From: Alteripontixanthobacter maritimus | Lineage (GTDB): Bacteria > Pseudomonadota > Alphaproteobacteria > Sphingomonadales > Sphingomonadaceae | Assembly: GCF_003340475.1 (NCBI RefSeq) | Contig: NZ_QBKA01000002.1 | Span: 629,501-693,500 of the forward strand | Reading direction: 5' to 3' | DNA: 64,000 bases | The notes under the pieces: model-generated | What the model was told of the DNA's origin: nothing | The model's database searches: none | Seen by the model: only the letters and a program-made list of their open reading frames with translations | Part shown: piece after piece, positions 3,364-63,232 of the stretch | Layout: each line of letters starts with the position of its first letter | How positions within the stretch are numbered: position 1 is the first letter of the stretch | Translations under genes and position numbers: made by a program

Positions 3364-3918
3364 TTACCGGCAATCCTCGATGACGCGGGTAACTTCCGGA
3401 TAAGCGGGCACATAGAGCGTATCGCGGCCCTGCGCTCCGATAGCGAACCGGCCCTTGCTGAAAGCCATTGCATCAAGCAGCGGGTCACGCGCGTTCAGGA
3501 ATGCGGCGACGAACGGCCCGCCACCCGCATCGGGCTGGGCGGTCAGCAACCGCTCCGCACTTTCGGTGCGAACGCGGATGGAAATATCCTGGGTCGATCC
3601 ACCAGAACGGACCAGCCGCATCTGCCCGCTACCGCGCAGGCATTCGATACCGAACAGCGCATTTCCGCCCGGCGGTCCGAATGTGGCGCGAGTAAGCGAG
3701 CTGCCGCTGGCATAGCTCCAGTCGCCTGCCGTCAATGGCGCATCCATCCAGTCGGTGGAATTGGGCGCAGCGGCAACCGGCGGCGTGACGACTGGTGCCG
3801 GTATCGGAGCTGGTGCGGCAACGGGCGGTGCGGGTGTCGGCGCCGGTGCTGGCGAAGTGCAGCACGCTAGGGAGAAAAGGGGAAAAAGCAGAAGGGGTTT
3901 TTGAAATCGCATGATCAT
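3364..3918 (-). CDS. Putative lipoprotein, unknown function
   Basis: A protein of 184 residues (182 if the second ATG, at 3912, is used). It starts MIMRFQKPLLLFPLFSLACC, a lipoprotein signal with lipobox SLAC. A low-complexity Pro/Ala linker of about 40 residues follows, the usual spacer of outer-membrane or periplasmic lipoproteins, and then a globular domain of about 120 residues ending EVTRVIEDCR. I recognise no catalytic motif. It is divergent from tlyA with a 46-base gap holding both promoters. A family of similar small sphingomonad lipoproteins exists, but a function is not known to me. Confidence 0.75.
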   Translation of the reverse strand: MIMRFQKPLLLFPLFSLACCTSPAPAPTPAPPVAAPAPIPAPVVTPPVAAAPNSTDWMDAPLTAGDWSYASGSSLTRATFGPPGGNALFGIECLRGSGQMRLVRSGGSTQDISIRVRTESAERLLTAQPDAGGGPFVAAFLNARDPLLDAMAFSKGRFAIGAQGRDTLYVPAYPEVTRVIEDCR

Positions 3919-61701: not shown

Positions 61702-61845
61702 GAATCTTCCTTCGATAAAAAGCTGTATTATGGGGATAGCACGGCTGGGCGGTGGTGCAAGCTGGGCGCACGCTTTTCTCACTCTTGCGCGGTTACTGCC
61801 AATTGCTAAGCGGGACAAAATCACGGGTTGGATATGGGGGCTTCG

Positions 61846-62316
61846 ATGCTTGGCGAATTCAAGAAATTTATCGCGCGCGGCAATGTGCTGGACCTGGCGG
61901 TGGGCGTGGTAATCGGCGCGGCATTCGGCAAGATCGTGACCGCGCTCACAGAAAGCATGCTGATGCCGCTGATCGGCTGGGTGTTTGGCGATGTCGATTT
62001 CTCCAACTGGTTCGTTCTCCTGGGTACGATACCGGCTGAATATACGGGATCGCGCACTAATTACGCCGAACTGAAGGAGGCCGGGGTGGCGATGCTGGGT
62101 TATGGCGACTTCCTGACCCAGCTCGTGAACTTCGTCATCATCGCGTTCGCTCTGTTCCTGCTGTTGAAATCGGTGAACCGGGTGCTCGACGAGATACAGG
62201 AAAAGCAGGCGCAAACCGAAGACAGCTCAAAAAGCGACGAGGTTCCGACCGATCCGCAGCTCGACGTGTTGAAGAAAATATTGGCCGAATTGCGCGCCGA
62301 TAGCGTTAAGGGCTGA
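61846..62316 (+). CDS. mscL: Large-conductance mechanosensitive channel
   Basis: A 156-residue channel subunit. The N-terminal amphipathic MLGEFKKFIARGNVLDLAVG leads into TM1 VVIGAAFGKIVTALTESMLM, the periplasmic loop carries the usual Asp-Phe/Tyr pattern, TM2 is LVNFVIIAFALFLLLKSVNR, and a C-terminal cytoplasmic helix bundle ends KKILAELRADSVKG. It is an emergency release valve for hypoosmotic shock. In-frame ATGs at 61834 and 61846 are candidates; 61846 matches the family start. Confidence 0.95.
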   Translation: MLGEFKKFIARGNVLDLAVGVVIGAAFGKIVTALTESMLMPLIGWVFGDVDFSNWFVLLGTIPAEYTGSRTNYAELKEAGVAMLGYGDFLTQLVNFVIIAFALFLLLKSVNRVLDEIQEKQAQTEDSSKSDEVPTDPQLDVLKKILAELRADSVKG

Positions 62317-62335
62317 CGCACCTTGCACTGCTCAC

Positions 62336-62363
62336 TTCACATTAACGCTGGAACGCTTATATA
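62336..62363 (+). promoter_or_regulatory. Sigma-70 type promoter for ssrA
   Basis: TTCACA (62336-62341) and TATATA (62358-62363) separated by 16 bases, with the acceptor RNA beginning about seven bases further on. It is a near-consensus housekeeping promoter, matching the strong expression expected of tmRNA. Confidence 0.7.
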
Positions 62364-62565
62364 GAGAGAGCCGGTTTTGGCCGGATATGACGATAAAGTG
62401 CACTGTGTAATAGGCACAACGGACCCGGGGGCAGTACCCGGCGGCTCCACCAAAAGCGGCGGTTTTGCGCCGTTCCTGATGGGGCCGAACTAGGATCGAC
62501 GTGTGTTGAAAGGCTTTGTTTTCGTTCGGGCTGAGTAACCCGTTTAAGGCTCACAAACCATAAGT

Positions 62566-62601
62566 GCAAATGACAATGAAGCACTCGCAATCGCCGCGTA
62601 A
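62566..62601 (+). other. Proteolysis tag frame of tmRNA
   Basis: GCA resume codon then NDNEALAIAA and TAA. The full tag is ANDNEALAIAA with the hydrophobic LAIAA tail that ClpXP-type proteases recognise. The frame lies in the coding piece of ssrA. Confidence 0.93.
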
Positions 62602-62680
62602 TTTTAGGGCCTAACGGTCTGAATTTACAAAGCTAAAGCGCGGTTGGACACACCGGGCAACAGAAGTGTTACGGGGGCCC

Positions 62681-62715
62681 GGGGGGCCTAGCAACAGAAC
62701 CCCCCACTCCTTTTC
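62681..62715 (+). terminator. Hairpin at the ssrA 3' end
   Basis: GGGGGG (62681-62686) and CCCCCC (62700-62705) around a 13-base loop, followed by ACTCCTTTTC. It may be the last tmRNA pseudoknot, a terminator, or both. Confidence 0.5.
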
Positions 62716-62730
62716 TGGGTCCCTGCGGGC

Positions 62731-62910
62731 GCAGGCCATCCGGCCTGCTTGCTTCCTCGCTCCCGCGGCCTTCGGCCACTTCGCTGCGGGCGGCCCGTTC
62801 GGGCCTTTGGTTTGCTCATCGCAAACGGGTCCTGCGCCAAGCCTGCAAGGTAGTCCCGGTTCCGGGTCACGGCAGTCCAGCGTGCGACCGCACGCCGGCC
62901 GGTAGGCCGG
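62731..62910. repeat. Array of seven consecutive perfect inverted repeats
   Basis: The repeats follow each other with little space: GCAGGCC/GGCCTGC (62731-62748), CCCGC/GCGGG enclosing GGCC/GGCC (62762-62790), GGCCCG/CGGGCC (62792-62805), GTTTGC/GCAAAC (62810-62826), CCCGG/CCGGG (62855-62866), CGTGCG/CGCACG (62881-62894) and CCGGCC/GGCCGG (62895-62910). Loops are two to five bases. It contains no coding frame I would trust. Confidence 0.75.
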
Positions 62911-62974
62911 AAGCCTAAGAAAGCGCATGCGACCGCCGACGCTTGAGGCTACTACAAAAACTGGCAGCAATCGG

Positions 62975-63232
62975 TCACTTGACTGTGACGGGCTCCGGCT
63001 CATCCACTGCCCTATCCAACCCAGCTTCCAGCTTCAAACAATCCAGGATCTTCGCGCCTGCAAGAAACACCGCGCCGGTGCAGCACAGAAACATGAACCA
63101 GCCGAAATAGCCGGGAAACTGTGTGAGGTAATTCGCGCCGCGTTCGGTTGCGCCCAAAGCGAGCGCATAGATAATGAGATAGGCCTCCCACCGCGTCTTA
63201 ATGACGAAAAGCCTTTTTATCTTCAGCAACAT
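62975..63232 (-). CDS. Small membrane protein conserved in sphingomonads
   Basis: An 85-residue protein beginning MLLKIKRLFVIKTRWEAYLI, with two hydrophobic segments (IYALALGATERGANYLTQFP is loop-like; YFGWFMFLCCTGAVFLAGAK is the second helix) and a basic/acidic C-terminal tail. I recall similar proteins annotated hypothetical across sphingomonads, with the same IKTRxEAYxIIYA opening. The AAGGGG upstream of the ATG on the minus strand supports the start. No function is known. Confidence 0.8.
   Translation of the reverse strand: MLLKIKRLFVIKTRWEAYLIIYALALGATERGANYLTQFPGYFGWFMFLCCTGAVFLAGAKILDCLKLEAGLDRAVDEPEPVTVK

Follow-up and report, generated by a model that had tools for sequence, protein, structure and literature searches.

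Bacterial genomes commonly contain hairpin repeats as part of their non-coding DNA. MITEs and similar elements (Correia, RUP and ERIC) are small, carry terminal inverted repeats and insert near genes, and group IIC introns insert just behind intrinsic terminators. The CGTC REPs, as PMC3733652 describes them, are 20 to 40 bp long and have a CCA tail, a CGTC, TGTC or CCTC tag and an 8- to 9-bp stem whose first two pairs are AT, and the enzyme that moves the alphaproteobacterial ones is presented there as an open question.

We analyzed a block of hairpins behind ssrA, the tmRNA gene, in a stretch of 64,000 nt from Alteripontixanthobacter maritimus, called the window throughout. An earlier note had taken this block for a possible structured RNA, a repetitive extragenic palindrome cluster or a protein-binding array. 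Our comparisons indicate that it is probably one copy, now diverged, of a repeat of ∼250 bp that inserts non-autonomously and is assembled from interchangeable hairpin modules. Such a copy is a trap for annotators, who could otherwise mistake hairpins that covary behind ssrA for a new small RNA.

The hairpin block and its copies

Seven short inverted repeats can be read by eye in the block, at 62731-62748, 62767-62777 (with a 4-bp stem), 62792-62805, 62810-62826, 62855-62866, 62880-62895 and 62895-62910, the last two overlapping by one base. The earlier note had called them seven perfect hairpins, far beyond chance. With perfect, non-overlapping stems of at least 5 bp, the strict count is four for loops of 3 to 8 nt and five for loops of 2 to 8 nt. 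Dinucleotide shuffles of the block gave a mean of 1.37 such hairpins and reached four or more in 11 of 500 cases, and 10 of the 1064 windows of 180 nt in the 64-kb window also contain at least four. The folding z-score for 62693-62925 was -0.80 on the + strand and -1.81 on the - strand, whereas a more typical copy folds better relative to its shuffles (z of -2.68 and -3.67). The visual impression is right in kind and the hairpin number is unusual, yet its statistical weight was overstated; we judge the hairpins to be real because of the comparison with other copies, not because of their count or folding in this block. The tmRNA gene placed before the block was confirmed by ARAGORN and by Rfam (alpha_tmRNA match at 62332-62673, 224 bits). 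Of the small membrane protein gene placed after it, a small gene stands, as an 85-aa ORF on the opposite strand with no Pfam family, and the ∼180 bases given for the block fall within a wider unit (Table 1).

Searched against its own 2.68-Mb genome, the ssrA block gave 68 matching pieces. We then used a covariance model, R1, made from 18 copies of this genome, leaving out the window copy, the copies of the D type (Table 1) and any that contained large inserts or for which trimming failed; R1 is tuned to these copies, and weak or partial copies elsewhere may escape it. The window copy was matched at 62779-62913 with 50.2 bits even though it is absent from the model. Across the genome, R1 gave 30 rows, which were reduced to 26 places by removing those at 3700 (a contig-end duplicate) and at 117065, 2022586 and 2187604 (second pieces). 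A motif scan gave 36 hits, of which eleven were removed as chance, duplicate or second-piece matches. Scattered copies, which had been named beforehand as the mark of a selfish repeat, are therefore present at 26 places, and the suggestion of a repetitive extragenic palindrome cluster came close, the block being dispersed, palindromic and extragenic.

The copies are unevenly distributed, 21 of the 26 lying within a 1.04-Mb arc (G000:C2, 1.52 to 2.56 Mb), a clustering matched by 5 of 5000 random placements. GC skew in 20 sampled stretches was too flat to place the origin or the terminus, and runs of like-oriented copies along the chromosome were not significant (hand calculation, z of about -1.2). 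Stable RNA genes lie near four copies, namely, the tmRNA gene, the SRP RNA gene (with the copy 5' of it) and two tRNA genes; we considered an enrichment beside such genes and dropped it, since four copies are too few for the claim. The near-identical stretches at G000:C2 3.7 kb (L011) and 2562.8 kb (L009) differ by small indels; the first lies near the beginning of the contig, the second about 95 kb short of its end, and they are probably contig ends that overlap and were left unjoined.

Table 1. Positions in the window of the parts of the ssrA copy and of the neighboring genes
Feature	Coordinates	Strand	Description and basis
Whole dispersed element, ssrA copy	62710..62961	.	Ends approximate, from comparison with other copies in the same genome
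Outer edges of the ssrA copy			Left T-rich CTTTTCTGGG, right TACTACAAAAAC; approximate
Left end module	62720..62730	+	CCCTGCGGGC type; comparison of copies
Hairpin P	62731..62748	+	7-bp stem, loop ATCC; family covariation
Extra hairpin	62762..62790	+	CCCGC / GCGGG around GGCC-TTC-GGCC; read from the sequence
Hairpin H1	62792..62805	+	5-bp stem, loop GTTC
Hairpin H2	62810..62826	+	6-bp stem, loop TCATC (most copies: TGGTC)
Variable center	62838..62854	.	Differs in nearly every copy
Conserved beta motif	62865..62877	+	GGTCACGGCAGTC; comparison of copies
Alternative right module D	62880..62910	+	Hairpins GCGTGCG-AC-CGCACGC and CCGGCC-GGTA-GGCCGG
Right end module	62935..62949	-	Reads GCCTCAAGCGTCGGC; one mismatch from the common end unit; G000:C2:692434-692449
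ssrA	62357..62692	+	tmRNA gene, permuted alphaproteobacterial type; ARAGORN; neighbor, outside the element
85-aa ORF facing ssrA	62975..63232	-	No Pfam family; neighbor, outside the element
mscL	61828-62316	+	Pfam MscL, E of 1.1e-38; just upstream of ssrA

The first half of the unit is ordered as T-tract, end module (CCCTGCGGGC or CCTCAAGCGCCGGGC), hairpin P with the loop ATCC or GTCC, linker CTCGCATAAGCTCGGGCG, H1 and H2, and is followed by the variable center, the inverted second half, the second end module and an A-tract. We collected 79 half-elements by P loop, linker and spacing, the stem sequence not being a criterion; the end module before P is of the CCTCAAGCGCCGGGC type in 58 of them and of the CCCTGCGGGC type in 17, and T-tracts lie beside 51 of the 79 compared to 625 of 15600 random stretches. 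The second half usually starts with the beta motif in the window's genome and is, as read from the matches, an inverted copy of the first-half type in some other genomes. Few H2 alleles occur per genome. The ssrA copy is a mosaic, in which the extra hairpin occupies the place of the linker found in most copies and module D, also present in three other copies of the same genome (1807, 2187.7 and 2304 kb), has been taken in.

We considered the variable center as a guide or target sequence and set this aside, since the centers grade into one another as a series that reads as fast drift. One copy (L031, G000:C2 at about 117.0 kb) carries an insert starting with CGTCATTGCGAGGAG inside its center, which we take to resemble CGTC-type REPs, and another insert, CCTTCGACAGGCTCAGGAC, lies between H1 and H2 in three of the copies aligned for R1.

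Stem arms vary together around loops that hardly vary

In the 79 half-elements, 98.4% of the 869 stem cells of P and H1 are standard pairs, compared to 68.5% in shuffles. Double changes numbered 252 against 90.9±6.1 in shuffles and the covariation score was 0.691 against 0.164, both values reached by 0 of 500 shuffles, and structures slid out of register were 54% paired or less. The copies are related and exchange modules, so the double-change counts are not independent events. For P, there are 33 different 5' arms and 69 of the 79 stems are perfect; 540 of its 553 cells are Watson-Crick, with 6 A·C and 0 G·T, and the loop is ATCC in 59 cases and GTCC in 20. Its outer pair is G-C in 76 of 79 and the second pair is C-G or G-C, also in 76 of 79. 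A separate scan found 61 perfect stems for P and 64 for H2, with 28 and 16 different sequences, respectively, while scrambled-loop controls gave 0 perfect stems of 67 for P and 0 of 26 for H2. The 18 copies of the window's own genome, taken alone, show five pairs with a double change, a number reached by 25 of 500 shuffles. In an element shared by the genomes G131 and G059, four hairpins (P, one with an ATAA loop, H1 and H1') have exchanged their stem sequences for others and are still paired, and H2' and P' of G059 each have a single mismatch.

The hairpin stems thus change both arms together while their loops are nearly constant, and the hairpins are under pairing constraint. Compensatory changes, whose lack the earlier note had regarded as the sign of a mistaken reading, are massive, and they fit RNA and DNA hairpins alike.

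Gene context, spread and insertion sites

Gene context was scanned with our own codon-scored gene caller for 106 occurrences in 119 loci of CTCGCATAAGCTCGGGCG matches, several loci contributing two. Only 2 of the 106 overlap a called ORF and 6 are without a neighbor. The 98 with two called neighbors comprise 38 convergent, 48 co-directed and 12 divergent cases; convergent and divergent pairs being equally frequent in a circular chromosome, the difference between them has a p of 0.0003. The co-directed cases show no preferred direction (23 versus 25). The element favors gene 3' ends.

R1 matches at E up to 1e-4 were present in 54 of the 149 genomes sampled from the family and, counted by genus, in 39 of 96. 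The exact 18-mer CTCGCATAAGCTCGGGCG occurs in at least 119 stretches of named genomes; the 80 matches listed with names are mostly from Erythrobacter, Qipengyuania, Sphingomonas and their kin and include Asticcacaulis, Kordiimonadaceae, Iodidimonas and Hwanghaeella. By eye, the end module and hairpin P accompany CTCGCATAAGCTCGGGCG in 11 of 21 loci; the Asticcacaulis copies have no P and partly retain the end module, and in a Paracoccaceae MAG (L228), where neither stands beside CTCGCATAAGCTCGGGCG, the match looks like coincidence. When one mismatch was allowed, 10 of 289 class-wide genomes matched. Seven of these belong to other families and have 14, 11, 7, 5, 2, 1 and 1 matches, and the single matches (G198 and G414) mean little because the reversed control pattern also gave one match in each of five genomes of this sample.

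Some copies that one species carries are missing from the corresponding place in a congener. The genome G119 has at least 21 R1 matches, and at the three of its copies compared with the congener G036, the element was absent from all three matching sites. Site 1 measures 312 nt in G119 and 33 nt in G036, with the element placed immediately behind an intrinsic terminator, preserved in both genomes, and adjoining its T-run; sites 2 and 3 measure 311 versus 20 nt and 275 versus 90 nt, the 90 nt of G036 being unrelated sequence. No target duplication was evident by eye at the three sites. The absences in G036 could in principle reflect loss rather than insertion in G119. The element shared by G131 and G059 stands at one matching site, and hence copies can also persist.

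The probable reading of the ssrA block as a diverged copy of such an inserting repeat can be put as a sequence of steps. The element would consist of two inverted halves around the variable center, each built of interchangeable hairpin modules, and some factor, most probably an enzyme responsible for moving or copying it, would recognize the extruded hairpins by their loop and their pairing, not by stem sequence, which would be the reason why the hairpins are kept. Copies would survive mainly behind genes, where insertion harms least, and would swap modules with one another by recombination, and the ssrA copy would have inserted into the gap that separates ssrA from its oppositely oriented neighbor.

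Strand asymmetry and a possible action as RNA

When the different P and H2 stems that have exactly one defect are read inward, A·C occurs 21 times and G·T twice (p of 6.6e-5), a few members of this set probably being chance matches. Biased mutation is a poor explanation of the A·C excess because the unpaired stretches show no such excess, with G>A against C>T at 6 versus 6 in the linker, 1 versus 7 in a second stretch and 7 versus 5 in the beta motif. Read outward, the A·C defects turn into pairs of the G·U or G·T type, an indication that folding and recognition take place on the outward strand of each half. For H1, there was no asymmetry (29 versus 26 distinct), and we dismissed its wobble counts as noise, since 4-bp stems match by chance.

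This bias, which favors G·U outward and is missing from the unpaired linker, would also be expected of an element that acts as RNA. Its hairpins would then form a 3'-end structure that terminates transcription or shields transcripts, in keeping with the preference for gene 3' ends, or small RNAs would run outward from the center; in both versions, selection on the RNA would keep the element and mobility would be secondary. We consider these two versions, taken together, unlikely. A single transcript cannot explain both halves because the halves are inverted, so that one transcript cannot read both outward. The near-pure Watson-Crick pairing of P, which lacks G·T altogether, the symmetric H1 counts and the co-directed neighbors without preferred direction also argue against it. 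To make an intrinsic terminator, the T-tracts would have to stand on the other side; as such a terminator the element had been considered and rejected, 62792-62805 being the single terminator-like internal site. A search of Rfam gave no described family for the element, either in the window at gathering score or in six loci at E up to 5.

Origin of the pairing and of the dispersal

Perfect pairing could also arise without selection. Template switching during replication could make the palindromes and perfect them again, with gene conversion spreading them and nothing recognizing them, and both the high share of perfect P stems (69 of 79) and the few H2 alleles per genome would agree with such neutral palindromes. 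The loops, linker and end modules are nearly constant while the stems vary, however, and new insertions appear at matching sites, which together make a purely neutral origin quite improbable.

Mobilization as a REP or BIME by a RAYT (Y1) transposase would agree with the palindromic, extragenic and mosaic nature of the repeats, which is also described for REPs in PMC2817692 and PMC3733652. No Y1_Tnp, the RAYT-type transposase domain, was found in the window's own genome, and across the 149 family genomes, 9 of the 24 with Y1 carry the element where 8.7 would be expected; the copy-rich genomes G119, G015, G113, G091 and G095 are absent among these 24. The conserved tag is also missing. Within 10 nt 5' of hairpin P, the one hairpin scanned, CGTC, TGTC or CCTC occurs in 0 of 79 half-elements on either strand, and GTAG occurs in 17 of 79 (16 on the outward strand, 1 on the inward) and is not conserved, the outward-strand GTAG being one variant of the linker. 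A RAYT mover may have been lost after spreading, but we find mobilization by RAYT very hard to credit. The element has the repeated, extragenic and palindromic features of a REP or BIME in the broad sense and, with its inverted end modules and filled and empty sites, those of a MITE; by the features tested, it is not a GTAG or CGTC REP.

The reading that we prefer is therefore still that of an inserting, non-autonomous repeat. A more specific form of it, which we put forward tentatively, is an undescribed mobile-element family across several alphaproteobacterial orders whose hairpins are read by loop and pairing in single-stranded form, as RNA or as single-stranded DNA, by an enzyme other than Y1 that takes the outward strand of each half, so that the stems drift freely and their pairing is kept. 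The surprise lies in the strong turnover of stems with nearly constant loops, the alphaproteobacterial spread and the missing mover. This family combines very strong compensatory change, filled and empty sites in one genus and copy-rich genomes without Y1, a combination that would allow a search for the mover based on nothing more than gene content.

Relation to ssrA

We located the tmRNA gene in 29 of 30 relatives, own genome included, and in 30 of 30 further genomes chosen among those that bear the element, and searched these 59 loci with R1, taking up to 1.5 kb on either side. A copy 3' of ssrA was found in 1 of the 59, the window's own, so the block is not fixed behind ssrA as the earlier note had thought it might be. 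Weaker R1 matches at L323 and L336 lie on the 5' side of ssrA. In 37 of the 59 loci, counting the window's own, a homologue of the 85-aa ORF stands 3' of ssrA and is encoded on the opposite strand, from which we take ssrA and the facing gene to be an old pair and the element to be the newcomer. A structured RNA or regulatory array linked to ssrA and fixed behind it, for which the position of the block and a partial element seen by eye behind ssrA in G113 (L337) would speak, has practically no chance of being right in view of the other 58 loci, where no 3' copy was detected by the model, and of the 25 other places in the window's own genome. The ssrA-linked reading is refuted for the family, and a private role of the ssrA copy alone is possible. 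That the element stands behind ssrA is probably a matter of where this copy happened to insert, with no particular connection to the tmRNA.

Other repeats were seen at these loci. In L115 (G008), L124 (G006) and L107 (G150), partial tmRNA 3' segments (GCAACAGAA, then a C-run) are repeated behind ssrA, as if insertions or duplications had occurred there repeatedly and left remnants. Five relatives (L119, L124, L318, L323 and L340) have a palindrome-rich repeat of another type (CGGCCTGCGAACGGCA..CTGCGCTTCCGGTGCTCACGACCTT..GGTCGCTGCGCGCCGGTTCTCG) behind ssrA, and L106, L127 and L334 have long near-perfect inverted repeats, with arms of tens of bases, close behind ssrA.

Comparison with known systems

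We found no report of the element in the literature, also when searching with the motif letters, in a search whose coverage of subscription journals was thin; it is apparently a hairpin repeat that has not been named, its general type being known. One G119 copy lies just behind an intrinsic terminator, as group IIC introns do, but the element is palindromic and about 250 bp long, and no intron family was found by Rfam in six loci at E up to 5. The element resembles MITEs in its size, its terminal inverted repeats and its insertion near genes, and differs from them in that it has several internal hairpins, whose loops are constant and whose stems are exchanged. With the GTAG REPs, BIMEs and RAYTs of PMC2817692 and PMC3733652, it shares mosaic inverted units and the likely nature of non-autonomous mobile DNA, whereas its GTAG is not conserved and it has no link to a Y1 transposase. 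Compared to the CGTC REPs of PMC3733652, the element is larger, at about 250 bp, and untagged, with several hairpins and a 7-bp G+C-rich P stem; like them, it consists of dispersed hairpins, mostly in alphaproteobacteria and with no dedicated transposase (for the element, in the search for Y1), that lie behind genes and between convergent ORFs and occur in several stem versions per genome.
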